A stretch of 33,825 nucleotides of DNA from Treponema sp. (GTDB lineage Bacteria > Spirochaetota > Spirochaetia > Treponematales > Breznakiellaceae): positions 1 through 33,825 of the forward strand of contig JAITBG010000104.1 in assembly GCA_031283725.1 (NCBI GenBank). The letters run 5' to 3'. The notes beneath the pieces are model-generated. The model saw nothing but the letters and a program-made list of their open reading frames with translations. It was not told the origin of the DNA and did no database searches. Position numbers and translations under genes: made by a program. This document shows positions 9,136 through 30,576 of the stretch, one piece after another; position 1 is the stretch's first letter; each line of letters starts with the position of its first letter.

Positions 9136-9160
9136 TCCCCTGCCTAATCCTGATCCTATT

Positions 9161-9805
9161 CTATAAGCCCATGCCAAAAGATGCCTTGAGGCCGTTGGTC
9201 CGGAGGGTAACCCATTCTCCCCTGAGGGGAACATCCCGGGAATTCGCCGTTACCTGATAATATTGACCTTCATCAGTGGGATCGTAAATCCGGATTTCGC
9301 CGGTATTGCCGTATACCTCGATTTTGAAGGAAACCGGATTGCTCAGATTTTCGGCGGTCAGGAATTGCTCATACCCCCCTAAACTGACGCTTTGTACCAG
9401 TTCCATCCGGGAATTGGTATAACTGCGGTATACCTGGGCGCTCAGCCCCGAGGGAATATCCCGGCTGAGGGGTTTTTCATCATAATTAAGCCAGAGCAGA
9501 TAGGATTTGCCGCAGCCCCAAGACGCATCGTTATAGGAAGTATCCGCAAAGACATGTATTCCTACGCCGCCGTGACCATCCTCGGCGCCCCCCTCATAAC
9601 GTATGTTAAACTCATACTCCATGGGACCGCTTTGGGGAACCCGGAAATTGACCTTAGCCAACCGGGCTATATTATCGTTCTGAAAGAGCCTGTCCCCGAT
9701 AAATTCCCATCGGCCTGAGGCAAAACGATACTCCGGTATCCTGTTTTGGGCATGTAATGATAAGGTAATACCCAAGACAACCAGAAAAAACACCATCTTC
9801 TTCAT
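9161..9805 (-). CDS. Secreted protein of unknown function
   Basis: Clear signal peptide MKKMVFFLVVLGITLSLHAQ followed by soluble beta-rich-looking sequence; SD-like AAGGAGCCG upstream. Confidence 0.75.
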   Translation of the reverse strand: MKKMVFFLVVLGITLSLHAQNRIPEYRFASGRWEFIGDRLFQNDNIARLAKVNFRVPQSGPMEYEFNIRYEGGAEDGHGGVGIHVFADTSYNDASWGCGKSYLLWLNYDEKPLSRDIPSGLSAQVYRSYTNSRMELVQSVSLGGYEQFLTAENLSNPVSFKIEVYGNTGEIRIYDPTDEGQYYQVTANSRDVPLRGEWVTLRTNGLKASFGMGL

Positions 9806-9946: not shown

Positions 9947-11353
9947 ATGTCTGATACTATACTTATTGAAGACAACGACGCTGCCTCACGACTGGGAAGG
10001 GAAAAAATCAGTAAATTGCTGCTCCATTTCTCTATTCCGGCTATTACGGGGATGATTGTCAACGCCCTATACAATGTGGTGGACCGGATATTCGTGGGAC
10101 GGGGGGTAAACGAGGTTGCCCTGGGGGGCCTTTCCCTGGTTTTGCCCCTAATGACCATCAGCATGGCCTTTTCCATGCTCTTTGGCATCGGTTCGGCGAA
10201 TATGATCTCCATGCGCCTTGGCCAAGGCCGCCGTGATGAGGCGGAAAACGCCTTGAACCACTGTTTCTGGCTTCTTATAGGGATGGGGATCATCCTAATG
10301 ACCGTAGAACTGGTCTTTCTGGACCCAATTCTCTCTCTTTTGGGAGCCCAGGAGGGAAGCACCTCCCTAAGTTACGCTCGAAACTACTACCGGATCATCC
10401 TCTTTGGCCAGGTTTTCCTCATGGTAGGCTTCGGCTTTTCCCATTGTACCCGGGCTCAGGGGTTCCCCACCATTACCATGCTGAGTATGTTTATCGGCGC
10501 GGGGATGAATATTATTTTGGACCCGATTTTTATCTTTGTTTTCCACTGGGGAGTAGAAGGGGCCGCTTGGGCTACCATTATCTCCCAGTTGGCCGCAGCT
10601 ATCTGGATACTCTCCTTCAATTTCAGCAAGAAGACGGTTATCCGCCTCCGGCTAAAGACCTTCAAACCCACCCTGAACATTGTGGGCCAGATTATGGCCT
10701 TTGGTTCCGCCCAGTTTTTCCTGCAATTTGCCATGTCCGCCGTTCAGCTTATCTTCAACTCCAGCATGGGATGGTACGGGGTTGAAGCCCTGGGGGTAGA
10801 CAACGGCGGGGATATCGCCCTTTCGGGGATGAACATCAACGGATCCATCACCATGCTGATCCTCATGCCCATCTTCGGGATCAACCAGGGGGCCCAACCC
10901 ATCCTTGGCTTTAACTACGGGGCAAAGAAATACCACCGGGTCCTCAAGACATATTTGGGAGCTATTTCGGCGGCCGTGACGGTCGCCACGGTGGGTTTTA
11001 TCTTGGCAGAGCTGTTTCCGGTACAGTTGGTGCGCCTTTTCGCCCCGAACGGCAGCCCCGCCCTGATGAGCTTTGCCCCCAGAGCTATGCGGACGATGAT
11101 GCTTCTCCTGCCCCTTAACGGTTTCCAGATCGTGTCGGCGAATTTCTTTGTGGTCACCGGCAGGCCGAAAACTTCGATAGTCCTGTCCATGCTGCGCCAG
11201 TGTATTGCCCTCATCCCCTGTATACTGATCTTTGGACGGATCTGGGGCCTCTGGGGGGCCGTCACCGCCGCTCCGGTGGCGGACGGATTTTCGTTTCTGT
11301 GTACCGGAACAATGATTATTTTTGAGCTAAAAAAACTTCGTTCTGCACTGTAG
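9947..11353 (+). CDS. MATE family efflux transporter
   Basis: Multi-TM protein with LLLHFSIPAITGMIVNALYNVVDRIFVGRGVNEVALGGLSLVLPL and GINQGAQPILGFNYGAKKYHRV, both MATE signatures. Confidence 0.93.
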   Translation: MSDTILIEDNDAASRLGREKISKLLLHFSIPAITGMIVNALYNVVDRIFVGRGVNEVALGGLSLVLPLMTISMAFSMLFGIGSANMISMRLGQGRRDEAENALNHCFWLLIGMGIILMTVELVFLDPILSLLGAQEGSTSLSYARNYYRIILFGQVFLMVGFGFSHCTRAQGFPTITMLSMFIGAGMNIILDPIFIFVFHWGVEGAAWATIISQLAAAIWILSFNFSKKTVIRLRLKTFKPTLNIVGQIMAFGSAQFFLQFAMSAVQLIFNSSMGWYGVEALGVDNGGDIALSGMNINGSITMLILMPIFGINQGAQPILGFNYGAKKYHRVLKTYLGAISAAVTVATVGFILAELFPVQLVRLFAPNGSPALMSFAPRAMRTMMLLLPLNGFQIVSANFFVVTGRPKTSIVLSMLRQCIALIPCILIFGRIWGLWGAVTAAPVADGFSFLCTGTMIIFELKKLRSAL

Positions 11354-11801
11354 GCTTTCTCCACCGGCACAGTGTTTCTGCGGCGGAGCAGATCTTATCC
11401 GCCAGGCAGATTATCCATCCCTCCCGGTATTTAGGCGGATGTAACAAGGTATAGGGCCACATGTGGGTTCTGATAAGAGACGCCTCTTTATCAGATATGT
11501 TAAAATACTTCCGCCCGTTTTCCGCGGCGCACACAGGATGGGTCCACCCGTGGCGGGACCACATTTTTTCGGGTACATGCCAATCGTAGAGAAAAAAATC
11601 ATGGAGAAGAGCGCCCCTGACAAGGCTTTCCTTATCGCGGATCTTAAAAAATTCTCCTATGCTGAAACTCAGCCGCGCCACGTCCAGGCTGTGCTCATAG
11701 ACGGAGATCCGGCCATGCTGGATATACCCCTTAGATTCAGAAAATTTACTGTTCCCAAGAATTTCAGCGACCATTTTATTAAACAGAGCGGTATCTTTCA
11801 T
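11316..11801 (-). CDS. HD domain phosphohydrolase
   Basis: H...HD core: YEHSLDVARLSF...GALLHDFFLYDW...HPVCAAENG. Start overlaps the stop of the upstream gene (ATGA). Confidence 0.85.
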   Translation of the reverse strand: MKDTALFNKMVAEILGNSKFSESKGYIQHGRISVYEHSLDVARLSFSIGEFFKIRDKESLVRGALLHDFFLYDWHVPEKMWSRHGWTHPVCAAENGRKYFNISDKEASLIRTHMWPYTLLHPPKYREGWIICLADKICSAAETLCRWRKPTVQNEVFLAQK

Positions 11802-12374: not shown

Positions 12375-15300
12375 CTAGGCAATCCGGGTATTCATGATCA
12401 GCATCTGCAAACGGTTTTCTATGTTCGCAAAGCTGGTGTCGGGGTCATAATCCAGGGCAAGGATCTGGATACCGGGATATTCTTCTTTTATGCGCTTTAC
12501 AACACCCCGCCCGGCGAAGTGGTTGGGCAGACAGCCGAAAGGCTGGAGAAGGATGAAAGACTTTACCCCCTGGGATGCACGGTGCAGTATATCTGCGGCC
12601 ATGAGAAAAGACTCTCCGGAACAGATCGACCGGTCTATGATAGGATCGCTGTACTTAGCCAAATCCGGCAGCTGCAAAGCGGGTTCGTACAGGGGATGTT
12701 TGCGGGCCGGTATTTCCATAATCCTCTGGGCAATATCGAAAAATTTATCCCCCGCAAATGCCCGCAGCATTTCAAACATGGAATAGATCACCTGGTAATT
12801 CTTAAACTTTGAAATAATATGCATAAGCATGAGGTTTCGGTATATATCGTACATCCTGGGAAGCTCCACCTCCATATTGTTCCGTTCAAGGTACTCTTCT
12901 ATGTAAAAATTGGAACCCGGATGGTAGGTCAAAAGATATTCGCCGGTGATAAAAACTTTTGGTTTATGAATGGACCGGTCGTAACGGATGGCGCAGATCG
13001 CCTTAATGGCCTTTTTATAAGCCCGAAGCGCGCCAATCATGCCCCCGCGCTGCAATGCGTCGGCGATCTTATCCGTCGAAACTTCAAATACCCGGTTGGT
13101 CTCCCCCTTTTCAAATTCGTATGGGCGAATCTTGCGGCGCAGATCCTCCAAAATTTCTACCATTACCAGGGCCCAGCCGGCCCGGGCAAAGGACATCTCG
13201 CTTAACCTGAACCCCGGATGAATATTTTTAAGATCGTGGATGTCCGTGGAAAAAATGGGTACCTGGGGATACCCCGCATCGTCCAGGGCTTTCCGGGTGA
13301 GAAACATATAATTTACCAGCCGGCAGTCGCAGTAGGTTTTTCCCGTACCGATTACAACCTCATCGGGATCGTATTCCCCGCTTTTCAAAACCGACAGAGC
13401 TTCACCGATCAGCATTTGTGCGGGAAAGCAGCTGTCGTTGTGCACATATTTTTTACCCAGCTGAATAGCTTCCTTGCCGCCCAAGGGCAAAGGCGCCACC
13501 TTAAACCCCTGTTTACTGATGACCGCGGTCATGACCTTGCAGAAGGCCCGGCTGACATTAGGTACCAGAAGTATTTTGTTCTTGCCTTTTCTGGTAAATT
13601 TAACCGGATAAGGGTCCCGCAGAGGCTTAATCTCCGCATGTCCCGCTTCACGCTCCCTTCTGGCTTGTACGGTTTCGATAAAGGAACGGACCCGTATCCT
13701 TAAGGGCCCGGGCACTTCACTTTCATCGAGCTTTAAGATCAGGGGGACCTTTCCCGATATTTCCTTCATAAGGCGGATCACCTCATCGGTATAAATCGCG
13801 TCATGACCGCAGCCAAAACTGAATATCTGCACATACTCAAGGGCGGGATGCCGGGCGGTATATATGGCCCCGGAAAGGAGCCGCGCATGATTACTGTTGT
13901 TAATATCCAGCATAGTCTTGGAAAGATCCTGATCCTTCAGCCCGTCAAGGGCGTCCACCGTAATAACCGGGATTTTCTGATCGGTAAAATACCGGGATAA
14001 ACGGTGGTTTACCAGTTCATCAAATTGATAATGCCGCCCGGTGATAACCACGGCGAATTTTCCTTCCTCTTCCACCTTAGCAATAATGCGGGAACCCTCT
14101 TCAATCAGAAAGGCATTAAAGCTTTTCAGGGCGGCGTCCCCCTGGGCAATGGCGTCAAGAACCGTCTCTCGGGGGATGTTGTACGTATTCTGCATATACC
14201 GGCAGAGTTGCCTATCCCGGTCTTCCTGTTTGAACCAATGGAATACCGGCGCATCCAGAGGAGTATTCCAATTACGCTGGGGATCATCGGAATATTTCAC
14301 CACCAGGGGATAACCCTTGAGTACCGGACAGGTATAAGTACTGAGGGGCTCAGGATTATCAGAAGGAAGGTGAGCAAAAATGGGCAGGAAAATTCGGTCA
14401 ACCCTTAGGGCGATCAGATCGTGAATATGCCCGTGAACAAGTTTTGCGGGAAAACATACCGTATCGGAAGCAACGGATTGGAGCCCCCGGTCAAAGAGCC
14501 TGCGGGTACTGGGATTGGAAATTCTGGTCGTAAAGCCCAGGGCACGGAAGAAAGTGGTAAAGAAGGGCATGGTGCGCCAAAAATCCAAAGCCCGGGGCAG
14601 GCCGATGGTAATATTTCTATCGGAACATAGGGGACTAACAGGATAATCGGAAAAGAGCAATTTCTCCCGGAATTTTATCATGTCCGGAACCTCATCCATC
14701 TGGGTATTTATCAATTTAATTTTTTCCCGAACCGATGAATCCTCAAGGCTGCCGATTATCTCCCCACGCTCACAGCGGTTACCCGTAACCCAGGTACCGC
14801 TGCCGGAGGGGCTGGGTAACGGTTTTCCTGCGGAATTTCGTCCGTAGAAAAAGTTAACCAGGGTACGGTTACAATTATTTGTGCAAAAGCCGCACTTATT
14901 ATTCGTTTCCTGAGAATAGTCAAAATCCGCCAGGGCTTCAAGGCCGATAAAACGGCTCCTGTCCGCCGGGCCGTGGGGTGACGTAAATCCACGGGTGGCA
15001 AGGTAGTTTTTTGTAAGCAGGGCAATACCGATTGCTCCCATCTCCCCCGGATAGGGGGCGCGGATTACCGGCTTTTCTAAATACTGTTCCAGGGCACGGA
15101 GTACCGCGTTGTTTTTGAAGGTACCCCCCTGGACGATAATCTTGTCTCCCAGTTCGGCAAAGTTTGACATACGGATAACTTTGGTAAACACATTTTCTAT
15201 TATTGAACGGCACAGACCGGCCATAATATCCTCCGCCTGTTTCCCATTTTTTTGCTCCGTAATAATGGTACTATTCATAAACACGGTACAGCGGCTCCCC

Positions 15301-16805
15301 AGCTCTGCGGGGTTTTTCGCATTAAAGGCGGATTCGGCGATTTTATGCACCGGAATATTGAGGTTGGAGGCGAAGTTCTCCAGAAAAGAACCGCAGCCGG
15401 AAGAACAGGCTTCGTTGAGGGTAATATTAGTAACAATGCCGTCGGCGATAGAAATAGCCTTCATATCCTGGCCTCCAATATCCAGGATGAAGGTGACCCC
15501 ATCCATATACTTTTGAGATGCCTCGGCGTGGGCCACGGTTTCCACGGTGTGAAAATCCGCGCCGAAAGCTTTGTCAAAGAGCAGTTCACCATAGCCGGTG
15601 GTACCCAGGGCGATAATTTCCACGGTGATCCCCAAATCATCGTACTTCTTTTTTAGATCCAGCAGCGCCCGTTTAATAACCCGCAGAGGCTCGCCTTTAT
15701 TGTTGGAATAAAAACTATCCACCACATTTTCGTTTTCATCGAGGAGTACAAATTTCGAGGTAGTGGAACCTGCGTCGATCCCCAGATACACCCGCAGGGT
15801 ATCCCCTTTTTGCGCCTTAGGCAGGGGAGGGGGAGGAAGTTTATGCCGTTCCTCAAACACGGTACGATCGGCGGGGGTATCAAAATACTGTTTTCTTGTT
15901 ACGGGGATAGCGGCGCTGATATTTTCACGGTAATTGGCAAGGGCGGAAAGGGCCTTCGCCGGCTGAAAGTTTTGCGGAGAATCGATAAACATTTCGTCCA
16001 GCGAAAGAGCGGTACCGTAGGCGATCAGGGTTTCCGGATTTTCTGGCCGGATAATATCCGCCTCCTTAAGGCCGAGTCTTTCGGCGAACACCCGGATCAA
16101 GGTGGGGTTAAAAGTCAGGGGCCCCCCTTCAAAAATGATGGGCGGCTTGAGCGCAAGTCCCTGGGCAAGGCCGCCTATGGTCTGTTTGACAATGGCGTGA
16201 AAGGCGGAAAGGGCAATATCCTCCGGCCGGCATCCCTGGTTCAGCAGGGGTTGGATATCGGTTTTGGCAAAGACCCCGCAGCGGCCGGAAATGTCGTATA
16301 CCGCGGCGCCTTTAGCGGCCAGGGCTTCAAATTCCTCCACCGGGGTCCGCAGCAGGGACGCCACTTCGTCAATAAACGCGCCGGTCCCCCCGGCACAGCT
16401 CCCGTTCATCCGCATATCCGAGGCGACAAGCCGCTTTACCCCTTCGTCGTAGTAGAAAAAAACCACCTTGGCGTCCTGACCTCCCAGCTCTACGGCGACC
16501 CGGGCCTGGGGATAGAAGATACGGACCGCAATGGCGTTTGCCACTACTTCCTGGATATAATAGGCGTGTATGGCCTCCGCAATGGGCTTCCCCCCGGAAC
16601 CGCAAACCGCTGTCTTGAACTCGTAGCCGGGGAAACGGGAAAAAACTTCAGTTAAAAGGATATGAACCGTCTCAGACTGATAGGCGTTATGCCGTTCATA
16701 CCGGGAAAAAAGGATTTTTTTGCTTTCGCCCTCCATTACGACCACTTTTACCGTGGTAGAACCCACGTCTATGCCTAGACGAAGGGATGCATACATCTGT
16801 TCCAT
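12375..16805 (-). CDS. Acyl-CoA dehydratase activase-related protein: two fused BcrAD/BadFG-type ATPase domains plus DUF2229-like/HgdB-like C-terminal region
   Basis: Two ASKHA phosphate-1 motifs (GIDVGSTTVKVVV, GIDAGSTTSKFVL) and two Fe-S ligand loops (NGSCAGGTGAF, NEACSSGCGSF); C-terminal Cys-rich region (NKCGFCTNNCNR, IGLPRALDFWRTMPFFTTFF). Confidence 0.92.
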   Translation of the reverse strand: MEQMYASLRLGIDVGSTTVKVVVMEGESKKILFSRYERHNAYQSETVHILLTEVFSRFPGYEFKTAVCGSGGKPIAEAIHAYYIQEVVANAIAVRIFYPQARVAVELGGQDAKVVFFYYDEGVKRLVASDMRMNGSCAGGTGAFIDEVASLLRTPVEEFEALAAKGAAVYDISGRCGVFAKTDIQPLLNQGCRPEDIALSAFHAIVKQTIGGLAQGLALKPPIIFEGGPLTFNPTLIRVFAERLGLKEADIIRPENPETLIAYGTALSLDEMFIDSPQNFQPAKALSALANYRENISAAIPVTRKQYFDTPADRTVFEERHKLPPPPLPKAQKGDTLRVYLGIDAGSTTSKFVLLDENENVVDSFYSNNKGEPLRVIKRALLDLKKKYDDLGITVEIIALGTTGYGELLFDKAFGADFHTVETVAHAEASQKYMDGVTFILDIGGQDMKAISIADGIVTNITLNEACSSGCGSFLENFASNLNIPVHKIAESAFNAKNPAELGSRCTVFMNSTIITEQKNGKQAEDIMAGLCRSIIENVFTKVIRMSNFAELGDKIIVQGGTFKNNAVLRALEQYLEKPVIRAPYPGEMGAIGIALLTKNYLATRGFTSPHGPADRSRFIGLEALADFDYSQETNNKCGFCTNNCNRTLVNFFYGRNSAGKPLPSPSGSGTWVTGNRCERGEIIGSLEDSSVREKIKLINTQMDEVPDMIKFREKLLFSDYPVSPLCSDRNITIGLPRALDFWRTMPFFTTFFRALGFTTRISNPSTRRLFDRGLQSVASDTVCFPAKLVHGHIHDLIALRVDRIFLPIFAHLPSDNPEPLSTYTCPVLKGYPLVVKYSDDPQRNWNTPLDAPVFHWFKQEDRDRQLCRYMQNTYNIPRETVLDAIAQGDAALKSFNAFLIEEGSRIIAKVEEEGKFAVVITGRHYQFDELVNHRLSRYFTDQKIPVITVDALDGLKDQDLSKTMLDINNSNHARLLSGAIYTARHPALEYVQIFSFGCGHDAIYTDEVIRLMKEISGKVPLILKLDESEVPGPLRIRVRSFIETVQARREREAGHAEIKPLRDPYPVKFTRKGKNKILLVPNVSRAFCKVMTAVISKQGFKVAPLPLGGKEAIQLGKKYVHNDSCFPAQMLIGEALSVLKSGEYDPDEVVIGTGKTYCDCRLVNYMFLTRKALDDAGYPQVPIFSTDIHDLKNIHPGFRLSEMSFARAGWALVMVEILEDLRRKIRPYEFEKGETNRVFEVSTDKIADALQRGGMIGALRAYKKAIKAICAIRYDRSIHKPKVFITGEYLLTYHPGSNFYIEEYLERNNMEVELPRMYDIYRNLMLMHIISKFKNYQVIYSMFEMLRAFAGDKFFDIAQRIMEIPARKHPLYEPALQLPDLAKYSDPIIDRSICSGESFLMAADILHRASQGVKSFILLQPFGCLPNHFAGRGVVKRIKEEYPGIQILALDYDPDTSFANIENRLQMLIMNTRIA

Positions 16806-16901: not shown

Positions 16902-19730
16902 CTAACCTTTCTTGATCCGGGCATCAGCGGCTACAAAGGCGTCCCGCTTGGGATCATATATAATTGGGTTAAGATCGATTTCGGTAATCTCAGGCAGGGA
17001 GAGCATCATGGCGCTGATCCTTTCAATCAGATCCGCCAGGGCATTCTTGTTCACTCCCGGTTTTCCCCGGTATCCTGAGAGCAGCGGTTCACAACGCAGG
17101 CTGTTGATCAGACACAGCGCTTCTTCCCTGCCGATAGGGGGATAGCCGAAAACTACATCCTTCATTATCTCAACCCAGATACCGCCTAGACCGATCATTA
17201 CGGAAGGGCCAAGCTGGGGATCCACAATACCGCCCAGGATTAATTCTATTTCGCCGGGCACCTGTTCCTGGAAGTATATTCCCTTTGCTCCGGGGAAGCG
17301 TTTGAGAAAATCCTTAACCACCTCCGCAAGCTCATCCGCGGAACCTATGTTCAGCCGGACTCCACCCACATCGGACTTGTGTATAATTTCCGGATGTTCG
17401 ATCTTTGCAACTACCGGATAGCTTACGGAAACATTCCGGACTTCCTCAACGGCTCTTAAGAGACCGCTCCGGGGAACGGTGACACTAAAACTGTTCAGTA
17501 TGGCTTGTACGTCCAGGATGGGAAGGTATTCCCCGTGGGGAGCGCTTTCCAATATTTTTTTTGCATGGCTTATCACCTTGCCGGAAAAGCGCATTGCTTC
17601 TTCGGTGAATGAACGGCGGACCCGCATGTTCGCCAGCATGGTGGCAATCTGCTCAGGGTACTGGCTTGTGGGGATGCGGTTTTTGATCAGAACATCACGG
17701 GCGCCCTTGCCGAGGGTACGGCCGAAGAAACTGGTTAATACGGGGATATTCGCTTCCTTCAAAAGCGGAACCAGGGCTTCGGCTATCTTACCGGTATCAA
17801 CCGTAGCGGGGGGTACGCAGCATATCAGCAGGGAATCATACTCACCGCTTTCCAGCATGGCCTTGGCGGCCAGAACGTAATGTTCCGGCGGGGCGGGGGC
17901 CACAATATCCACCGGGTTCTGTACCGATGCTTCCCGCATAAGGTTTTCCCGCAGGAAAGACTTCAGTTTTTCCTGGGGAACCGGCAGGGTGAATCCGTAA
18001 TCACTGAGGGCGTCGGATATGAGAATGCTGGGACCTCCCGCATTAGTCAGATGGGCTACCCGGTTTCCCTTTACCTGCGGCATATTGGCCAGGGCCGCCG
18101 CGCAAACAAACAGATCCTCCAAGGACTGTATCCTGGTGACGCCGGCCTTCCGTATTAGGGCGTCAACGATAGCATCGTTTCCCGCCAGGCTTCCCGTATG
18201 GGAACTAACCGCCGCCAGACCGATGGAGGTTCTGCCCGACTTTAAGAGCAGTATGGGCTTGGTCATCCTGGCCGCCATCTGATAGAACCGGAAGGGTTCC
18301 ACAATGCTTTCCAGATATAGGACCACTACCTTGGTACAGGCATCTTTCTCGTAGAAAGGCAGGAGATCGCAGACCGTAATGTCCGCCTGATTACCCAGGG
18401 ACACTATTGACGAAAATCCAATGCCGAGCTCTTCGGCGTAATCCAGCATACCCGCGCCTATGGAACCGCTTTGCGTAACCAGGGCAACGTTCCCCCTGGC
18501 AATAGCGCCCGACAGAATCGTTGCGTTAAGGTTTATGGCAACATTCATTTCTCCCATACAGTTGGGGCCGATGAGCCGCATGTTGTACCGGTCTACAATT
18601 TCCACGAGCTTTTCCTGGGCGGCAATTCCCTCGCCGCCGGTTTCCTTGAAGCCCGCTGAAATGCAGACTATGGCCTTTACGCCCTTCTTACCGCAGGTTT
18701 CGGCAATTTCCAGCACCGTATGCCCAGGGGTGGAGATGATCGCCAGATCCACCGGGTCCTCAATATCGCTAACCGACGTATAGCCCCTGGCCGTCAGGAC
18801 ATCCTCCCCCCGCATATTAACGGCGTACACCTTTCCCGCGTAGCCCCCCGCCGTTATGTTCTCAACTATGGAGCGGCCTATGCCGGGCTTTTGGGAAGCC
18901 CCGATCACCGCCACGGAATCGGGGTAAAGCAGTTTTTCTGTGCAACGTTTATACAGGAGTATATTCTGCTTCCAACTTTCAATGCGGATACCCTGGGGAA
19001 CCGCTTTTTCCTTATGATAAACATTTCCCGTCTCATCCAGGGCAAATTTTCCCTGGGCAACCTCAAGCAAGGTACGGGCGCCCACTAAGCGGCCCTGCTC
19101 GTTCACCAGTTTAAGGTAGTACCGCATCCGATCCTCATCATTACTGTGGAGGCCGTAGTCCACGGGAACCCCTTCGGAGATAATCAGTATGGGTCCGCCG
19201 TCAACTTCCTTTGTGGCAAGGTGGGATGTGGAGCAAAGGACGTCCTCTCCGGCTTTCAAGGCAAGCCCTACCCCGTTTCCCCCGGCATAGGCCCGCTTCC
19301 CGTCTTTGGAAATGGAAAGATCCGCCGGATGAACATTGATGATGCGGTATTCATCCAAAAGACAATCCGTAGTTGCCCATACATACCCTGCCAGGAGGAT
19401 GAGATCCCCCTTCATAGGCCGGAGCAATTCCAGGGCTTCGGCATCGTACTCCCGGCGTACATCCTGGTCTTTAAGGGGTTTATTCCGTTTCCTGTAGAAC
19501 TCCCTGATATCAATGGACGCATGGGGAAGGCCCAGTTTTTCCGCGGTAACCATGGATTTTGAGAGAGGATCGCTGGAAAAAATTCCCGCCACCTCAAAGG
19601 GACAATCCGCGCCGGATCCTTCCATTTCCTTCTGCATCTCCCAGGCCCTCCAGAGAGTATCCCCGGATCCGGAAGCGTATCCAATCACCCGCAACTTTCC
19701 TGCCGCGGGATTGTGTAGTGATGTTGTCAT
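16902..19730 (-). CDS. Fusion protein: N-terminal PurN/Fmt-like formyltransferase domain plus NDP-forming acyl-CoA synthetase (CoA-binding, CoA-ligase, ATP-grasp)
   Basis: N-terminus YRIINVHPADLS...TSHLATKEVDGGPIL matches N-x-H-P and D-G-G-P of formyltransferases; then VAVIGASQKPGIGRSIVENI, LIGPNCMGEMN, ALVTQSGSIGAGMLDYA, SSHTGSLAGNDA and the ATP-grasp module ending EITEIDLNPIIYD. Confidence 0.9.
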   Translation of the reverse strand: MTTSLHNPAAGKLRVIGYASGSGDTLWRAWEMQKEMEGSGADCPFEVAGIFSSDPLSKSMVTAEKLGLPHASIDIREFYRKRNKPLKDQDVRREYDAEALELLRPMKGDLILLAGYVWATTDCLLDEYRIINVHPADLSISKDGKRAYAGGNGVGLALKAGEDVLCSTSHLATKEVDGGPILIISEGVPVDYGLHSNDEDRMRYYLKLVNEQGRLVGARTLLEVAQGKFALDETGNVYHKEKAVPQGIRIESWKQNILLYKRCTEKLLYPDSVAVIGASQKPGIGRSIVENITAGGYAGKVYAVNMRGEDVLTARGYTSVSDIEDPVDLAIISTPGHTVLEIAETCGKKGVKAIVCISAGFKETGGEGIAAQEKLVEIVDRYNMRLIGPNCMGEMNVAINLNATILSGAIARGNVALVTQSGSIGAGMLDYAEELGIGFSSIVSLGNQADITVCDLLPFYEKDACTKVVVLYLESIVEPFRFYQMAARMTKPILLLKSGRTSIGLAAVSSHTGSLAGNDAIVDALIRKAGVTRIQSLEDLFVCAAALANMPQVKGNRVAHLTNAGGPSILISDALSDYGFTLPVPQEKLKSFLRENLMREASVQNPVDIVAPAPPEHYVLAAKAMLESGEYDSLLICCVPPATVDTGKIAEALVPLLKEANIPVLTSFFGRTLGKGARDVLIKNRIPTSQYPEQIATMLANMRVRRSFTEEAMRFSGKVISHAKKILESAPHGEYLPILDVQAILNSFSVTVPRSGLLRAVEEVRNVSVSYPVVAKIEHPEIIHKSDVGGVRLNIGSADELAEVVKDFLKRFPGAKGIYFQEQVPGEIELILGGIVDPQLGPSVMIGLGGIWVEIMKDVVFGYPPIGREEALCLINSLRCEPLLSGYRGKPGVNKNALADLIERISAMMLSLPEITEIDLNPIIYDPKRDAFVAADARIKKG

Positions 19731-19735
19731 AATTG

Positions 19736-21022
19736 TTATCTACTTCCTAAAACTAAATTTGGCAGCGCGAGTACAATGTTAGGGAACAATATACAGAGAA
19801 ACAACAAAAATACTACCGCCGCTACCATGGGTAGTATCTGTTTGCTTGTTTCAACAAGACTGACATTACCTATCTTTGCCGCCACAAAAAGGCAGGTACC
19901 CACCGGCGGCGTCAATGCGCCTATACAGACATTTATTACCAGCAGGACACCGAAGTATACCGGATCAATGCCAAGCTGATTGGTTACCACCAGGACAATG
20001 GGGCTCAACAGTAAAATGATCGCTAAGGCGTCCAAAAAGCAGCCCATGATTAACACCAAGAGCATGATCAGGAGCAGAACCACCATTGGATTGGTGGATA
20101 CCGCCAGGAAAGCGGCGGCAATCTTCTGGGGAATCTGTTGACTGGTTAATACCCAACTCATAACCGTTGAGGACGAAAGAATCAGGGACACAATGGCGGT
20201 GCTTTTTGCGGCGGTTAGTAGCGACCGTTTGATTGCCGGTATTTTAAGGGTACGTAACACAAAAGCGCCGATGGCAAAGGCATATACCGCGGAAACAACC
20301 GCGGCTTCCGTAGCGGTAAAAAGGCCGGAAAAAATTCCCCCCAATATGATAATGGGCATGAACAACGGCAAAATCGCATCTTTTAAGGCATGGAAAAAAT
20401 CCTTCACCGTTACTTTTTTTGTTTCCCGGGGTATCCCTTGGATCTTTGCCACAAAGAAAGAGTAGGTCATCAAAACCAGGCCGAAAAGGACCCCCGGAAC
20501 CACTCCGGCGATGAACATACGCTCAACGGAAACCCCGGCAATGGTGGCGAAGATGATCATGGGGATACTCGGCGGAATGATGGGGCCTATGGCGCCGCCG
20601 CTTGCAACCAGGGCTGCGGAGAATGGGATACTATAACCCCGTTCCTTCATCGCCGGCAGGAGCATGGCCCCCACGGCTGCGGCGGTGGCAACCGCGGAAC
20701 CGCTCATGGCGGCAAAGATCATGGCAAGCACAATCGCTACGTGGGCAAGCCCTCCGGGAAGGCGGCCTACGATGACGTAGGCAAAGTCCATGAGCCGCTT
20801 GGTGATCCTGGACTCCTCCATAAGCGCCCCGGCGAGCATGAAAAACGGAATGGCCAGGTAGGGGAACGAATCAAGCCCCATATACATACTGTGGCCCACA
20901 ATGATTGGGTTAAAGATACCCTGCCACAGCATAATCCCTATGGCGGTCCCGCTCAGCGCAAAAGCCACCGGCACGCCGATCATTATGGCAAGCAGAAAAA
21001 CACCAAGAAACACTCCTAACAT
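19736..21022 (-). CDS. TRAP transporter large permease (DctM-type), system 1
   Basis: Multi-TM; IPFFMLAGALMEESRITKRLMDFA, MSGSAVATAAAVGAMLLPAMKERGYS, GAIGPIIPPSIPMIIFA. Confidence 0.95.
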   Translation of the reverse strand: MLGVFLGVFLLAIMIGVPVAFALSGTAIGIMLWQGIFNPIIVGHSMYMGLDSFPYLAIPFFMLAGALMEESRITKRLMDFAYVIVGRLPGGLAHVAIVLAMIFAAMSGSAVATAAAVGAMLLPAMKERGYSIPFSAALVASGGAIGPIIPPSIPMIIFATIAGVSVERMFIAGVVPGVLFGLVLMTYSFFVAKIQGIPRETKKVTVKDFFHALKDAILPLFMPIIILGGIFSGLFTATEAAVVSAVYAFAIGAFVLRTLKIPAIKRSLLTAAKSTAIVSLILSSSTVMSWVLTSQQIPQKIAAAFLAVSTNPMVVLLLIMLLVLIMGCFLDALAIILLLSPIVLVVTNQLGIDPVYFGVLLVINVCIGALTPPVGTCLFVAAKIGNVSLVETSKQILPMVAAVVFLLFLCILFPNIVLALPNLVLGSR

Positions 21023-21537
21023 CAGTTACCCCCCGTTTCTTCAAAGTCACGGTCATCAGTCCACATCATGACAAGTCTGATTATCACAAAGATTACCGCG
21101 ATGATGGAACTTGCCGGTAGTATCAGATAAATTGCTCCCATGGGAATGGGCAGGGTTGTTGCCTGCTGCCGGAACTGCCGCTCAATCAGGGCAAAGGAAC
21201 CCCAAACCAGAATAAACAGGATGACGTTTATCAAAAGATAAATTCCCGTTTCCAGCAATTTTCTGGCAATTCCCTCCAATTTGGTTTGGAGTAAATCAAA
21301 GCGGGTCAAGTCGTTGTAATATACAGCGGTGGGTAATCCAAGGAATACTACCCAGATAAACATGAAACGCAGAAGCTCCTCCGCCCAGGTAAAGGCCTTG
21401 CCGAAACAGACGCGTAACAACACCTGTGAAAACATGACCACCGCCATTACTACTATTAATAGCATCAGAAAAGAATTGATGCCTTTCTGAATGCGGGTAC
21501 AGGCGCTTTTGCACACATGGATTAACGAACCGCTCAT
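21022..21537 (-). CDS. TRAP transporter small permease (DctQ-type), system 1
   Basis: Four TM segments; FTWAEELLRFMFIWVVFLGLPTAVY signature; stop overlaps start of DctM (TGATG). Confidence 0.92.
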   Translation of the reverse strand: MSGSLIHVCKSACTRIQKGINSFLMLLIVVMAVVMFSQVLLRVCFGKAFTWAEELLRFMFIWVVFLGLPTAVYYNDLTRFDLLQTKLEGIARKLLETGIYLLINVILFILVWGSFALIERQFRQQATTLPIPMGAIYLILPASSIIAVIFVIIRLVMMWTDDRDFEETGGN

Positions 21538-21556
21538 TTTGCCCTCCCCAATGATA

Positions 21557-22588
21557 CTAACGGCGTTTTGCCTGTAACGCCGCTTCAATACGATCTATAT
21601 AGTCCTTTGCCTCCTGTCCCACCGACTTGATGAGGTCATCGTATACGGGCTGGACAATTTGGCGGAAACCGGTGGTGTCAACCTCATTTACGGCCATATA
21701 CTTCTTCAGCTCCTCGGTAAGTTCATTGTCGAGCCGTTCCGAAATGGGCCGGCTGCGGTCACGAGCGGCGATAACCTCTTCCATGATGATATTTTTTAAA
21801 TCTTCGGGGAGTTTTTTCCAGAATATCTCGGAAACCGTAACCACCGTGGGGGTATACACATGCTGGGTAATACTCAAATACTTTTGCACCTCATACAGCT
21901 TGGAGGCATAGACGATGCTCGGGGGATTTTCCTGACCGTCCACGGTTCCCTGGGCCAGGGCAGTATACAATTCCCCAAAGGCCATGGGCGTAGGATTCCC
22001 GCCCAAGACCCGTATGGTATCCACCACGGTTTTTGTTTCCGGCACCCGCAGTTTAAGTCCCCTGAAATCCTCCGCCCTAGTGATGGGCCGGATATTGTTT
22101 GTGGTGTCCCGCACCAGATTCATCCAGTATGCAAGGATACGTACGCCGGTTTTTTCAACAAACCTTTCGTTCAGCTCCTGACCAATTTCACCGTCAAGAA
22201 TGGCGTATACCTCCTGATTGTTGTTATACATATAGGGCAGTTCCAGCACCCCCATGGGCGCCCAGAATGACGCGAGCCCGCCCGGAGACTGGGTGCTCAT
22301 TTCCAGGGTGCCGAGCTGTAACGCTTCGGTCATAGTCCGCAGGGTACCGAGTTGTCCGCTGGGGTATACCGTTGCTTGAATACGCCCACCGGATCGCTCG
22401 TTCATCGCCTTTGCCAATTCTTCAAAAGTAACGTTAAGAATCTGATCCTGGGCGGTGGTATTTCCGATGCGTATGACAATAGGCCTCGTGTCTTCCCTCG
22501 AAGCCGCCCCATCGTCTTTTTTTGAGCAGGAGCCCAAAAACACCGCGCAAAGCGTAACAACCGCCGTTACGTAAATAATCTTGTGCAT
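21557..22588 (-). CDS. TRAP transporter solute-binding lipoprotein (DctP-type), system 1
   Basis: Lipobox VFLGSC; GRIQATVYPSGQLGTLRTMTEAL; FRGLKLRVPETKTVVDTIRVLGGNPTPMAFGELYTALAQGTVDGQENP. Confidence 0.95.
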   Translation of the reverse strand: MHKIIYVTAVVTLCAVFLGSCSKKDDGAASREDTRPIVIRIGNTTAQDQILNVTFEELAKAMNERSGGRIQATVYPSGQLGTLRTMTEALQLGTLEMSTQSPGGLASFWAPMGVLELPYMYNNNQEVYAILDGEIGQELNERFVEKTGVRILAYWMNLVRDTTNNIRPITRAEDFRGLKLRVPETKTVVDTIRVLGGNPTPMAFGELYTALAQGTVDGQENPPSIVYASKLYEVQKYLSITQHVYTPTVVTVSEIFWKKLPEDLKNIIMEEVIAARDRSRPISERLDNELTEELKKYMAVNEVDTTGFRQIVQPVYDDLIKSVGQEAKDYIDRIEAALQAKRR

Positions 22589-22609: not shown

Positions 22610-23821
22610 TCAGATCGATTTTACAATCGCCCTAAATTCCGCCTCTGTGAGATCTCGTTTTTCCTGATAGGACTTTACCTTTACCTTGGGAAGTATTTCG
22701 TCGAATTTTTCCTCGGGAACAGAAAGATTGCACTTGGCAAGCCACGCCTTTACATTGTCCTTACCGCTCTTTTTCCCAAGGAGAAGGTAGGGCTCGTTCT
22801 GTCCCGTAAGGTCCCACTTGTAGGGCAGCATCACCAGGGGGTCATGATCCTTGCAATTTACCCAAAGGCTGGAGGGCAGTCCGGTTTCCCAGAGGAATAT
22901 CTTATCCCCCACAATCGGTTTGGTGGGAGGCACGGGGTTACGGGTCAGATCCGCCACAAAATGGGAAAGTTCCTTAAACCTGATTGTATCAACACCGGTA
23001 TCAATGCCATACATCGCCAAAAGCGCAACCGCCACCGCCTCAAGCTGGGCGCCCCCCGCCCGTTCTCCTATACCGTTTACCGTAACATGGGCAACCTCCG
23101 CGCCGGCGCCGAGCGCGGCAATGGTGCTGGAAACGCCCATGCCGAAATCATCGTGGGCATGAATTTCTACCGGCAAGTCAGGAAACGCCGCTTTCAGTTT
23201 CCGTACCCGGTGGGCCGCTCCTTCCGGAGAAAACACACCAAAGGTGTCTACCAGAACGAGGGAATCCATGTAACCCTCTTCTCTAACCGCCTGAACAAGA
23301 TCGATGAGAAAATTTATTTCCGCCCGGGAAGAATCGGCCAGGAAGAACGATACCTTCAATCCAAGATCTTTTCCCGCCAGGGTCGCGTCTATGGCGGCTT
23401 TTTTTGCCTTATCCACGGTCCACTTTTTGCCGAATTCCAGCAAATGCTCGCTTCCGATGAGTTCCGCGATAACCCCCTGTACCCCGCATTCCTTGGCGAG
23501 CTGCATATCCTTAACCATGTTACGGACAAAAGCGTAAATATCGGCCTTTAATCCAAGGTCGCAAATTTCACGGATCGCTTCGGCGTCTTCCTTAAGGGCA
23601 GCCGGGGTACCTGCCTCAATCCGGTGTACCCCCACCTCGGAAAGTCTCTTCGCAATTTGAACCTTTTCATCCTTGGTCAGGATGATGCCCGGCTGCTGTT
23701 CCCCGTCCCGTAACGTGGTATCAAGAAATTCAACTTTTTTCGGAAAATTGAATTTATCCGTAACTTCTTTGTCATAGTTGGAAGGGCTTACCCACCACTT
23801 GCCTTCTTCATGGTATCCCAT
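22610..23821 (-). CDS. HMGL/LeuA-like aldolase family protein, paralog 1
   Basis: DTTLRDGEQQPGIILTKDEKV, VHRIEAGTPA, VEIHAHDDFGMG, VNGIGERAGGAQLEAV; lacks a LeuA regulatory C-terminal domain. Confidence 0.9.
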   Translation of the reverse strand: MGYHEEGKWWVSPSNYDKEVTDKFNFPKKVEFLDTTLRDGEQQPGIILTKDEKVQIAKRLSEVGVHRIEAGTPAALKEDAEAIREICDLGLKADIYAFVRNMVKDMQLAKECGVQGVIAELIGSEHLLEFGKKWTVDKAKKAAIDATLAGKDLGLKVSFFLADSSRAEINFLIDLVQAVREEGYMDSLVLVDTFGVFSPEGAAHRVRKLKAAFPDLPVEIHAHDDFGMGVSSTIAALGAGAEVAHVTVNGIGERAGGAQLEAVAVALLAMYGIDTGVDTIRFKELSHFVADLTRNPVPPTKPIVGDKIFLWETGLPSSLWVNCKDHDPLVMLPYKWDLTGQNEPYLLLGKKSGKDNVKAWLAKCNLSVPEEKFDEILPKVKVKSYQEKRDLTEAEFRAIVKSI

Positions 23822-23881: not shown

Positions 23882-24643
23882 TCACCACTTACGGACCAGG
23901 TTGCCGCCGTCTACCAGGATGTCGGTTCCGTAAATAAACTTTGCTTCATCGCTTGCCAAAAACAGAATCGCCCGGCTTATGTCCTGGGGCAGGCCGTAGG
24001 AACCGTACGGGGTCTTGGCAAGTTTTGCTTTGACCGCATCGGTGTCCAGCCAGGGAGCGGAAAGGGGGGTGTAAACGGACCCCGGAGAGACGCTGTTACA
24101 GCGGATCCCCCTGCCTCCATAGTCAAACGTAATCTGGCGGATCAGCCCCAAAAGGCCGTGTTTTGAGGTGGTATAGGCAACTCCGCCGTGTCCTCCTATG
24201 TGTCCCGCAATGGAGCAGGTAAACACAATGACCCCGCCGGAATTTTCGAGCATGTGGGGGATAAGGTTGCGCATGCAGTAAAACGCGCCGGTGAGGTTCA
24301 CGTCTATCACCCGCCGCCACACTTCGGGGCTTACCTCCAACAGGTTTTTATAATTATCAAAGGCCGCAGCATTACCGACAAAAATGTCGATCCTGCCGAA
24401 GGTTTTGATCGTTTCCGCGTACATAGCCTTAACGCTTTCCTCAGAGCCTATGTCGCCCTCAATAACGATGACTTTTCCTCCGGTGGCGGCGATCTCCCCG
24501 CCGACCGCCCTTCCTGAAGCCTCCCCGGGGAGACACAGGATCGCCACATTCGCCCCCTCGGCGGCAAAGGCTTTGGAGGTGGCCTCTCCTATTCCGCTTG
24601 AGCCGCCGGTTACAATAACCGTTTTTCCGCTGAATCGAGTCAT
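23882..24643 (-). CDS. Short-chain dehydrogenase/reductase (SDR)
   Basis: TGGSSGIGEA cofactor motif, NAAAF, S...YTTSK catalytic motif, IRCNSVSPGSVYTP. Confidence 0.95.
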   Translation of the reverse strand: MTRFSGKTVIVTGGSSGIGEATSKAFAAEGANVAILCLPGEASGRAVGGEIAATGGKVIVIEGDIGSEESVKAMYAETIKTFGRIDIFVGNAAAFDNYKNLLEVSPEVWRRVIDVNLTGAFYCMRNLIPHMLENSGGVIVFTCSIAGHIGGHGGVAYTTSKHGLLGLIRQITFDYGGRGIRCNSVSPGSVYTPLSAPWLDTDAVKAKLAKTPYGSYGLPQDISRAILFLASDEAKFIYGTDILVDGGNLVRKW

Positions 24644-24646
24644 GGA

Positions 24647-25216
24647 TTATTCCTTCCCGTAATACATTTGCAGATAATAAAAGCTGACAGTATCGGCATA
24701 TTTAACAATCATCGCTTCCCGTGTTTTACAGGCATTGTCCCCGGTGGGCGAAAATAAGGCCGAGTGGGCTAGGATGATGTGTACCACCGGAAGGGGCAGC
24801 CCATGTTTCTGCGCAAGATGGGCTCCCGAACAGGGGTGGGGACACAATTCACTAATAGGTTTCATGAAGGCTTCTTTTCCATCCCAGTCCATTTCGATAA
24901 AGTTTCCCACATCGTGGAGCAGCGCCCCGGCAATAAGGGCATCCCGGTCAATGGCGCCCGCCGCCCTTTCAGTTTCCAGCAGCCCGTCATAGAGGGCAAG
25001 GCAGAGCTTAGTGACGCTCCGGATGTGGTCCACGTCGTTAAAGGGCGCTTTTTTGCTCAGGCCCTTCACCACCACCGGGCAGTTCGTAATACCTTTTTTA
25101 TCCCAGCCCCCGGTGACTATCGCGTCAAGCAGGGTTTCCGCGCACTTTTTCCGGAGATCCTCATCCTTAATAAGAAGATGCTCAGGCATCAGTTGGTATA
25201 TATCTTCTACGGTCAT
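24647..25216 (-). CDS. HD domain phosphohydrolase
   Basis: VDHIRSVTKLCLALYD...AGALLHDVGNFIEMDW...CPHPCSGAHLA...YADTVSFY. Confidence 0.85.
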   Translation of the reverse strand: MTVEDIYQLMPEHLLIKDEDLRKKCAETLLDAIVTGGWDKKGITNCPVVVKGLSKKAPFNDVDHIRSVTKLCLALYDGLLETERAAGAIDRDALIAGALLHDVGNFIEMDWDGKEAFMKPISELCPHPCSGAHLAQKHGLPLPVVHIILAHSALFSPTGDNACKTREAMIVKYADTVSFYYLQMYYGKE

Positions 25217-25226
25217 GTTCTTCTCC

Positions 25227-26507
25227 TCATTTTTTCGCTAAGGCGGGAAGCCAGGTAGAAAGGCCGGGGATAACGATGATAAACACCTGACATACCAGCA
25301 GCGCTATTACCGGGCCTACTACGGCTTTGAGAATATCCTTGATGGGAATACCGGTAATTCCCGCCGCAGCATAGAGATTGCATCCAACCGGCGGGGTAAC
25401 AAAGCCGATGGCAAGGTTCGCTACCATAATTGTTCCAAAGTGGATGGGATTTAACCCGATACCTACTGCTATGGGCAGTAAAATGGGACACAGAACAACG
25501 ATTGCCGCCAGAGTATCCAGAAACATACCGGCAACCAAAAGAATGATATTGATTAAAACTATTATCAGAATCCTGTTGTCTGTAAACTTCAGGATAGCTG
25601 TGGTGATAGTCGAGGGTATGTTCTGAATAGCCAGGACCCGCCCAAAGACAGTCGCCACGGCAACAATGATCAGTATAGGTGCGTTTAACCTGGCAGCTCG
25701 AAGCAAAATCCCCGGGATGTCCGTTATCTTGATGGTACGGTAGATAAGCAGGCTTACCAGTATCCCGTAGAGAGCCGCTACCCCCGCCGCTTCGGTGGCG
25801 GTAAAGATGCCGCTGTAGATCCCCCCAATGATTACTACCGGACAAAGCAGAGCCCAAATACCGTCAATTAGGGCTTTAAGTATCCCCATGCGCGGTTCCT
25901 GGGAATCGTCAAGGACAACCGGGTGGGCCCTGCTGAAGACGTGGGCATAGAACATCAGGGCTACGCCGCACAAAATACCGGGGAATACCCCGGCCAGGAA
26001 CAAATCTCCGATGGATTCGCCGCTGGAAACTCCGTACATCACCATAGGCAGGCTGGGAGGAATCAATACCCCCAAGCCCCCTGACGCTGCGGTAAGGGCG
26101 GTGATAAACCGCCGATCATAGCCTTGTCTGGTCATGATGGGGATCATGATGGTTCCCACCGCCGCGAAGGTTGCGGCCCCTGAACCGGAGATGGCGCCAA
26201 AGAGCATACAGGTAAACACCGTCGCCATGGGCACGCCGCCGGTAAAGCCCCCTACGCAGGCGTTGGCGAAGTTAAAAAGCCGTCTTGAAATACCCCCGGT
26301 TGCCATAACTTCTCCGGCAAAGATAAAGATCGGCACCGCAAGTATGGGGAAGGAATCCATGGACGACACGATTCCCCGTCCGAGGAAGAGCAGGGAAACG
26401 CTGCCGCCGAAGACAGAATTGGCAAAGAGTCCCAATCCCATGGCTGCGGCGATGGGTACGCCCAGGACCATAAGTCCAAAAAATATGAGAAACAATGCCG
26501 CAATCAT
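25227..26507 (-). CDS. TRAP transporter large permease (DctM-type), system 2
   Basis: VPIFIFAGEVMATGGISRRLFNFA, AISGSGAATFAAVGTIMIPIM, GVLIPPSLPMVMYG. Confidence 0.95.
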   Translation of the reverse strand: MIAALFLIFFGLMVLGVPIAAAMGLGLFANSVFGGSVSLLFLGRGIVSSMDSFPILAVPIFIFAGEVMATGGISRRLFNFANACVGGFTGGVPMATVFTCMLFGAISGSGAATFAAVGTIMIPIMTRQGYDRRFITALTAASGGLGVLIPPSLPMVMYGVSSGESIGDLFLAGVFPGILCGVALMFYAHVFSRAHPVVLDDSQEPRMGILKALIDGIWALLCPVVIIGGIYSGIFTATEAAGVAALYGILVSLLIYRTIKITDIPGILLRAARLNAPILIIVAVATVFGRVLAIQNIPSTITTAILKFTDNRILIIVLINIILLVAGMFLDTLAAIVVLCPILLPIAVGIGLNPIHFGTIMVANLAIGFVTPPVGCNLYAAAGITGIPIKDILKAVVGPVIALLVCQVFIIVIPGLSTWLPALAKK

Positions 26508-26508
26508 G

Positions 26509-27012
26509 TTATTTTCCCTCCCGGGCGGCCTTATGGGCAGCCAAACCGATGATCTGGGCGATCAGTCCTCGGATAATCCGCATACTCATGAGCCCCATCC
26601 CAATCGGAAAAGACATGTAAATATACTGCATGGGGATCTTCAAAACCGGACTCAACTGGGGACGTGTAATTAAACTAACGCACATCTGGATACCGACTAT
26701 GGTACAGATTACTCCGAAAAGCAGGAACACTACCTGGCTGAAGAGGTTCAGTCCAAGCTTAGCCGTGCCTTTAAGACTGGATTCCAGCATATCTACCCGA
26801 ATATGGGTTTTTAATTTAGCCACCAGGCTGGACCCTAAAAAGGTCATCCAGATGAATGAATATCTTGCGGTTTCTTCTGTCCAGGCGGCGGGTGTTCTGA
26901 TGAGAAATCGAAATACTACCTGCAAAACAGTTACGGTAACAAAGTAGCCCATTAGCAAGCAGACAAAATATTCTTCCAGATGTTCATCTAAAAATTTCAA
27001 CGCTCTCTTCAT
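26509..27012 (-). CDS. TRAP transporter small permease (DctQ-type), system 2
   Basis: AAWTEETARYSFIWMTFLGSSLVAKLKTHIRVD, four TM segments. Confidence 0.92.
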   Translation of the reverse strand: MKRALKFLDEHLEEYFVCLLMGYFVTVTVLQVVFRFLIRTPAAWTEETARYSFIWMTFLGSSLVAKLKTHIRVDMLESSLKGTAKLGLNLFSQVVFLLFGVICTIVGIQMCVSLITRPQLSPVLKIPMQYIYMSFPIGMGLMSMRIIRGLIAQIIGLAAHKAAREGK

Positions 27013-27042
27013 GGAACTCCCCTTGTGGTAAATATCCGGTTT

Positions 27043-28077
27043 TTAGCGGGAAGCGGCGTTAACAGCGGCAAACAAACGATCAATAATCGCCTGTCCTCCG
27101 ACACTTTGTGCAAACACCGATAGTACCGGCTTAACCTTGTCTCTCCACTGCTGCATTTCCTGGTCCGTAAGTTCAATGATGGTCCCGCCGCTGTCTTTTA
27201 TTATTTTGATATACTCCTCATAGTTTTCGGCGGTCTTTTCGCGCTGGAACAGGGTACCTTTCATGACGGCTTCCCGAACAATCGTCTGCAGCTCCGGAGT
27301 CAGACCATTGAACCAGGCGGGGTTTGCCACGAGCATACCGCACTGGAATACATGGTTGGTCATGATCAAATATTTCTGAATTTCATAGAACCTGGAGGAG
27401 ACGAAGAGCTCCACCGGATTTTCCTGGGCATCCACCGTTCCCTGTTGCAGGGCGGTATACAGTTCCGCAAAAGATATGGCCGCGGGCTGGGCGCCCAAGG
27501 TTTCCCAAATGGCGATATGCAGGGGATTTGTCATAACCCGGATCTTAAGCCCCGCCAGATCCGAAGGAAGGCGGATACTCCGGGGGGCGGAAAGTTCCCG
27601 GTAGGCCACCGCTTCAATATAGCCCAGCCCCACCATGTCACCCGCTCCTTCCATCATATCCAGCATGCTTTTACCAAAGTCACCGTCCAGCACCTTATAG
27701 GCCACGTCTATGTTGGGGAAGGCAAAGGGTACGGAAAACACTCCCAACTCGGGCACAAACTGAACCAGATAGCCTACGTTGGTAAACATTATCTGCACAT
27801 CCCCTTCCTGTACCGCTTCCACAAGCTGGGGATCGTTGCCAAGCTGTCCGTTAGGGTAAATCTCTACTTTAAATACCCCATTACTTGCCTTTTCCATGTG
27901 ATCCTTAATCGCCAGGAAAGACTGATGGGCTAAAGTTTGTTCGTTACCCGTATGGGTCATCTTAACCGTGATGGTCTTCGGCGCGCCGGAAGAACCGGAA
28001 CCAGATTTGCTGCAAGCGCTGAATATAACCGTGAAGGATAAGACCACAATACCTGCTAGTAACATTGTTCTTTTCAT
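27043..28077 (-). CDS. TRAP transporter solute-binding lipoprotein (DctP-type), system 2
   Basis: Start at ATG preceded by GGAGGTAATAAA; lipobox VIFSAC; EIYPNGQLGNDPQLVEAVQEG; LAGLKIRVMTNPLHIAIWETLGAQPAAISFAELYTALQQGTVDAQENP. Confidence 0.95.
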   Translation of the reverse strand: MKRTMLLAGIVVLSFTVIFSACSKSGSGSSGAPKTITVKMTHTGNEQTLAHQSFLAIKDHMEKASNGVFKVEIYPNGQLGNDPQLVEAVQEGDVQIMFTNVGYLVQFVPELGVFSVPFAFPNIDVAYKVLDGDFGKSMLDMMEGAGDMVGLGYIEAVAYRELSAPRSIRLPSDLAGLKIRVMTNPLHIAIWETLGAQPAAISFAELYTALQQGTVDAQENPVELFVSSRFYEIQKYLIMTNHVFQCGMLVANPAWFNGLTPELQTIVREAVMKGTLFQREKTAENYEEYIKIIKDSGGTIIELTDQEMQQWRDKVKPVLSVFAQSVGGQAIIDRLFAAVNAASR

Positions 28078-28124
28078 TTTATTACCTCCTGCATAATTAA
28101 AGCGAAACAAATTTCGCTTATTTC

Positions 28125-30345: not shown

Positions 30346-30413
30346 ATTATACCTCCACAAGGGCATAGCTATTTTCACTAAGCTTATCGTATCATGTTTT
30401 CATAACCTTGTCA

Positions 30414-30516: not shown

Positions 30517-30576
30517 TTACAGTAAATCAGGGATAACAAGGATAAAGAGGTGTATGTAACTGATTCGGGAGAGATA

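Follow-up and report, generated by a model that had tools for sequence, protein, structure and literature searches.

A PurN-like formyltransferase domain fused to an ADP-forming acyl-CoA synthetase in Treponema and other bacteria, and a tentative formyl-CoA route to ATP

HypX carries an N-terminal formyltransferase domain ahead of a CoA enzyme, and this domain has been proposed to make formyl-CoA from CoA and 10-formyl-tetrahydrofolate (10-formyl-THF) (PMC6802093); in ALDH1L1 a formyltransferase-like domain hands its formyl group to a phosphopantetheine thiol (PMC8748788). In the literature searched, the described fusions end in CO (HypX) or, via the carrier thiol, in CO2 (ALDH1L1). Formyl-CoA is a rare intermediate. 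The protein analysed here is encoded by a contig of a gut Treponema sp. (the whole stretch of 33,825 nucleotides is called the window) and joins two known enzyme families, PurN-like formyltransferases and ADP-forming acyl-CoA synthetases (ACDs), in a fusion that we could not find described in the open papers searched.

The gene (16902-19730, minus strand) is complete in the window translation, with an ATG start, no internal stop and a product of 942 residues, and was assigned by ORF, Pfam/NCBIfam and AlphaFold. A preliminary description of the window had read it as a formyltransferase-like domain fused to a complete NDP-forming acyl-CoA synthetase, and that reading stands: the ORF is uninterrupted, and Pfam and the fold prediction (AlphaFold, full length: pLDDT 86.9, pTM 0.85) agree. 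Residues 1-262 (18945-19730, minus strand) make up the N-terminal PurN-like domain, delimited by Pfam PF00551, PDB profile search, Foldseek and AlphaFold. Residues 263-942 (16905-18944, minus strand) make up the ACD module, with CoA-binding, Succ-CoA-ligase-like and ATP-grasp parts, delimited by Pfam and structure search.

Residues 1-262 are predicted to have the PurN-type formyltransferase fold. Formyl_trans_N covers residues 63-185 (34.5 bits against a Pfam cut-off of 26.1), and the NCBIfam PurN model scores 59 bits on this part, under its equivalog cut-off of 150. In PDB searches the single fusion sequence matched PurN structures at 1e-5, and with a 36-sequence family profile the solved PurN structures came out at 1.6e-20, ahead of PurU at 1.8e-6; no HypX was found among the N-domain matches. 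The preliminary description had staked its reading on the fold of the N-terminus, and the prediction did not refute it: the AlphaFold model of these residues has a pLDDT of 94.8, and its best Foldseek matches are all PurN (3auf at 3.4e-15; 1cde_A with a TM score of 0.87 on the target).

Active-site columns were compared with E. coli PurN in 23 fused and 12 standalone proteins, the reference sequence being taken from the PDB profile search. By alignment, the equivalents of the catalytic Asn106, His108 and Asp144 are Asn132 (19335-19337), His134 (19329-19331) and Asp177 (19200-19202), all minus strand; they lie in INVHPADLS (residues 131-139) and DGGPI (177-181). The importance of His108 and Asp144 in PurN has been stated (PMC3261824). 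Both are conserved without exception in the fused (23/23) and the standalone (12/12) proteins, and the GYVWAT and HPADL motifs are invariant or nearly so in the fused set. For the remaining positions we assume the roles they have in the E. coli enzyme: Arg64 on the folate side, Ser12-Asn13 at the GAR phosphate site, and Glu173. The Arg64 equivalent is invariant in all 23 fused proteins. At the Asn13 position every fused protein has Thr and every standalone protein Asn (23/23 and 12/12), and the Ser12 equivalent in the fused proteins is Asn, Asp, Ala or Gly. The Glu173 region aligns poorly, but the fused sequences shown lack a GDW..FP-type motif that many of the standalone proteins have. Since the folate-side Arg is invariant while Asn13 has become Thr throughout, our reading is that the donor machinery was retained and the acceptor site altered, and that the donor would be 10-formyl-THF. 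The fusion is not PurN proper, a GAR transformylase, given the Thr in 23/23 and the 59 bits where 150 are needed. Nor is it the sole PurN of its organism: a further PurN lies at C195, and C55 holds a second gene with a formyltransferase domain.

The Asn/His/Asp triad named in the preliminary description is entire in the window protein and its His and Asp are invariant, but the triad as a whole is not fixed, because Gly takes the place of the catalytic Asn in 9 of the 23 fused proteins. These nine all belong to one Synergistia clade and combine Asn132 to Gly with His170 to Tyr, keeping His134 and Asp177. Either the chemistry tolerates the changes or the N-domain of this clade drifted to another role. 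The fusion genes of the Gly/Tyr loci (L136-L141, L143-L145) are otherwise intact and well conserved.

From about residue 265 to 940 the protein is predicted to be a complete ADP-forming acyl-CoA synthetase. Pfam finds CoA_binding_2 (69 bits), Succ_CoA_lig (157 bits) and ATP-grasp_5 (175 bits), a full ACD at about 271-940, and NCBIfam gives 476 bits to 4-hydroxybutyrate-CoA ligase, under that model's equivalog cut-off. The best structure for this part is the 4-hydroxybutyryl-CoA synthetase 8wzu (E 2.5e-52), and full-model Foldseek matches are 8wzu, PatZ, DddX and ckcACD1. Both ACD histidines are present and invariant in the family alignment: His511 in SSHTGSLAG of the alpha part (18198-18200, minus strand), which by its family would be the phospho-His, and His784 in HKSDVGG (17379-17381, minus strand), presumably the second, beta-part His.

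The preliminary description had proposed listing proteins that share this architecture, and about 25 near-full-length homologues (43-71% identity) were found in at least four phyla, Spirochaetota, Bacillota, Synergistota and Thermodesulfobacteriota. The architecture is kept in 22 other near-full-length aligned proteins; the fusion is therefore neither a product of chance nor a frameshift or assembly artefact. A degenerate scan in which each species was represented by one genome gave 13 loci at 48-69% N-domain identity and then a sharp drop to at most 39%. For 11 of these 13 loci the ORF extends into the ACD and is almost full length; in L047 and L054 it is cut by the contig end or broken downstream. 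Hosts are Oscillospiraceae, Treponema, Sedimentibacter, Candidatus Adiutrix, Acidaminobacter, Soehngenia, Synergistales, Acetomicrobium, Tissierellia and unplaced Clostridia. By whole-genome search the fusion occurs in 14/183 Synergistia; it is in 4/249 genomes of the order around G435, and in the class around G429 the centre genome is the sole carrier among 391. A search of 59 relatives of the window's genome gave no full-length match except the window itself, and among the matches listed from a plasmid collection LeuA-like or ACD proteins appear only separately. The distribution is thus patchy, as expected of horizontal transfer.

The fusion has one common origin. In the N-domain tree the 23 fused proteins and one truncated form make a single clade (100/99), which adjoins standalone PurN-like proteins and lies far from ordinary PurN; within it the window protein clusters with Treponema and Oscillospiraceae sequences, not with its own phylum alone. 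Standalone relatives at about 30-39% identity occur in Woesearchaeota, Pacearchaeota, Bathyarchaeota, deltaproteobacterial lineages and some genomes of the window's class. Three divergent PurN-like genes from Woesearchaeota, an unplaced archaeon and Pacearchaeota (L062, L101, L058) have purine neighbours: two follow PurL-PurQ and one has PurD just upstream. Such neighbours make it probable that the standalone relatives act as GAR transformylases or are closely akin to these. The truncated form, in G590 (L186:13441-14214), is an N-domain alone, 257 residues of the Gly/Tyr type, with the same gene neighbourhood and no ACD after it; that genome has no full-length fusion match at E <= 1e-130. This N-domain branches within the fused clade, so it has probably lost its ACD.

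In the window the fusion ends a minus-strand run. The run begins with HMGL2 (29134-30378), a second member of the LeuA-like family of HMGL1 by profile matches and alignment, followed by a D-2-hydroxyacid dehydrogenase of the PGDH/glyoxylate reductase type (28125-29108), TRAP transporter 2 (25227-28179 by Pfam; DctM 25227-26507, DctQ 26509-27012, DctP 27043-28179), an HD-domain protein (24647-25216, Pfam) and an SDR oxidoreductase (23882-24643; Pfam and similarity) whose 59% identical homologue adjoins the fusion in L139. HMGL1 comes next (22610-23821), LeuA/homocitrate-synthase-like by profile matches, alignment and co-occurrence and with WETGLP for HESGIH, and then TRAP transporter 1 (19736-22588 by Pfam/NCBIfam; DctM 19736-21022, DctQ 21022-21588, DctP 21557-22588). 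A regulator of the MerR-type HTH/Xre-type HTH/cupin kind is encoded divergently (30550-31401, plus strand), and several loci have a homologue of it (38-65%) close to the fusion. Elsewhere on the minus strand of the window are a second small HD-domain protein (11316-11801), a gene with a lactate-racemase N-terminal domain match of 34 bits in which the LarA C-terminal domain was not detected (7867-9234), and, about 96 bp downstream of the fusion, a gene for 1476 residues with two BadF/BcrA-type activase domains and DUF2229, of the 2-hydroxyacyl-CoA dehydratase activase type (12375-16805); in other loci no such activase-type gene adjoined the fusion.

The HMGL proteins are similar to homocitrate/isopropylmalate synthases, a family in which the HESGIH motif has a role in acyl-CoA handling; both histidines of this motif are replaced (WETGxP) in all close HMGL homologues aligned. 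The HMGL family, which also has an N-terminal KWWVSPxNY motif, has apparently not been described before, and its genes are closely tied to the fusion. Among 183 Synergistia, close HMGL genes occur in 15 genomes, the fusion in 14 and both in 13 (Fisher p = 5e-17, relatedness ignored). Near the fusion, HMGL comes with an aminotransferase and a sodium:neurotransmitter symporter in L049, L050, L053 and L142 (some assigned by similarity), with an aminotransferase and a branched-chain-type ABC transporter in L042, and with a 2-hydroxyacid dehydrogenase and TRAP genes in L136-L139 and L141; L139 also has the SDR and TRAP beside the fusion. L045 and L048 have TRAP genes beside it and no HMGL within the stretch examined. 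Distant HMGL relatives are found with TRAP and 2-hydroxyacid dehydrogenase genes and without a fusion nearby. One further distant LeuA-like relative (L181:8694-14372), again without a fusion nearby, lies beside an aminotransferase and a PFL-like glycyl-radical enzyme with its activase, and a related pathway may end in this other way there.

Gene context, which the preliminary description had missed, is the best constraint on function, and the neighbours point to amino or hydroxy acid catabolism. As the fusion travels with a LeuA-like gene, it is probably part of an undescribed breakdown pathway for such acids, and we infer as a common denominator a 2-oxo acid that is made from an amino or 2-hydroxy acid and passed to the LeuA-like enzyme. 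Searches of the TRAP binding protein and the dehydrogenase against the PDB did not fix the substrate. Candidates considered, all guesses, are homoserine or 2,4-dihydroxybutanoate (via 4-hydroxy-2-oxobutanoate to pyruvate and formaldehyde), pantoate, cysteate/sulfolactate and aromatic 2-oxo acids.

The mechanism we tentatively favour makes the fusion a bifunctional catabolic enzyme. Its N-domain, derived from a GAR-transformylase-like protein, would bind 10-formyl-THF and move the formyl group onto the thiol of CoA rather than GAR, giving formyl-CoA, and the ACD half would convert formyl-CoA, ADP and Pi to formate, CoA and ATP; run in reverse, the fusion could charge formate onto folate. Upstream, the transporters would import an amino acid or 2-hydroxy acid, an aminotransferase or the 2-hydroxyacid dehydrogenase/SDR would convert it to a 2-oxo acid, and the LeuA-like protein, as a metal-dependent aldolase, would cleave this to a one-carbon unit, directly or via methylene-THF and FolD, which 21 of the 24 genomes examined contain. 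The 10-formyl-THF donor, the CoA acceptor, the direction of the reaction, the substrate and the aldolase step are all inferred. The formyl-to-CoA route is favoured because HypX and ALDH1L1 also load a thiol via a formyltransferase domain. The folds with their retained catalytic residues, the kept donor side with its altered acceptor site, the partner genes and the occurrence of FolD also speak for it. The preliminary description had suggested a coupling of folate or formyl chemistry to CoA/ATP; with the right domains, the key catalytic residues kept in both and the HypX and ALDH1L1 precedents, this is reasonable, but the acceptor site is unlike that of PurN and nine of the 23 proteins carry Gly and Tyr. 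Those variants count against the formyl-CoA mechanism, as do the G590 N-domain without an ACD and an N-domain sequence that is PurN-like, not HypX-like.

Formate-THF ligase (FTHFS) performs the same net reaction as the proposed route from 10-formyl-THF to formate and ATP. It is present in the window's own genome, in 10/11 carriers of one set and in 9/14 Synergistia carriers, so the formyl-CoA route would often be redundant and simple replacement of FTHFS is rejected. In Synergistia, in favour of the route, FTHFS is missing more often from carriers (5/14) than from non-carriers (21/169; p = 0.03), these being mostly draft genomes.

An only slightly less probable alternative is that the two halves perform separate steps of one 2-oxo-acid pathway and share no formyl-CoA. 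The N-domain would then shuttle a formyl or related one-carbon group between folate and some intermediate of the pathway, and the ACD would turn some other acyl-CoA (e.g. from LeuA-like cleavage) into acid and ATP. The remodelled acceptor site and partner genes that imply several steps would suit such a division, and ACD enzymes use a wide range of acids and serve varied roles through fusion or adaptation, the nearest structures being PatZ, DddX and 4-hydroxybutyrate-CoA synthetase. However, the fusion is obligate across four phyla, which suggests a shared or channelled intermediate. The N-domain might also be non-catalytic, a regulator or substrate-binding module that senses folate or a pathway metabolite, much like the accessory domains of other ACD fusions. 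The change of Asn106 to Gly with His137 to Tyr in 9/23, the altered PurN substrate site and the N-domain kept without an ACD in L186 speak for this; we consider it unlikely, with catalytic His and Asp and the GYVWAT and HPADL motifs conserved beyond what a decayed site would be expected to show.

It is more improbable still that the N-domain is a PurU-like 10-formyl-THF hydrolase, or acts on a formylated substrate, with the ACD activating the formate set free or a partner acid. Among both profile and fold matches PurU structures come second as a group, but sequence and tree place the domain with PurN-like proteins, some of them in purine operons, and a Pfam scan found in the fusion no ACT domain such as PurU has.

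If the formyl-CoA mechanism is true, its ATP-yielding version would give gut and digester fermenters a way out of folate one-carbon metabolism that conserves energy. The broader proposal is a third use of a folate-derived formyl thioester, in which one enzyme takes 10-formyl-THF to formate and ATP via formyl-CoA within an undescribed amino or 2-hydroxy acid fermentation built on a LeuA-like lyase without the acyl-CoA histidines of LeuA; we hold it as a speculative possibility. The near-obligatory LeuA-like partner points to an unannotated catabolic pathway, a more interesting prospect than the fusion itself. Automated annotation probably labels this pathway as an isopropylmalate synthase together with an acetate-CoA ligase.

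Among known systems, ckcACD1, 4-hydroxybutyrate-CoA synthetase, PatZ/Pat and DddX share the complete ACD module and both active-site histidines, at 25-37% identity of the fusion to solved ACDs, none of which was found to carry a formyltransferase domain. PatZ/Pat, a GNAT fusion, likewise carries its ACD with an extra domain; a Pfam scan found no GNAT domain in the window protein, which is thus not a Pat/PatZ-type acetyltransferase. PurN and the standalone PurN-like subfamily of archaea and bacteria are nearest by tree and share the fold, the catalytic His and Asp and the folate-side Arg, but PurN has an intact GAR phosphate site (Asn13 is Thr and Ser12 is changed in the fusion) and no ACD. HypX likewise joins an N-terminal formyltransferase fold to a CoA-thioester enzyme, with formyl-CoA as proposed intermediate, but its C-terminal partner has a crotonase fold and makes CO for NiFe-hydrogenase, where the fusion has an ADP-forming synthetase; Pfam and Foldseek found no enoyl-CoA-hydratase-like domain, and the fusion is not a HypX. 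ALDH1L1 resembles the proposed role, in that its formyltransferase-like domain gives formyl to a pantetheine thiol and a second domain consumes it; unlike the fusion, it is eukaryotic, uses a carrier domain and an aldehyde dehydrogenase to produce CO2 and NADPH, and makes no ATP.
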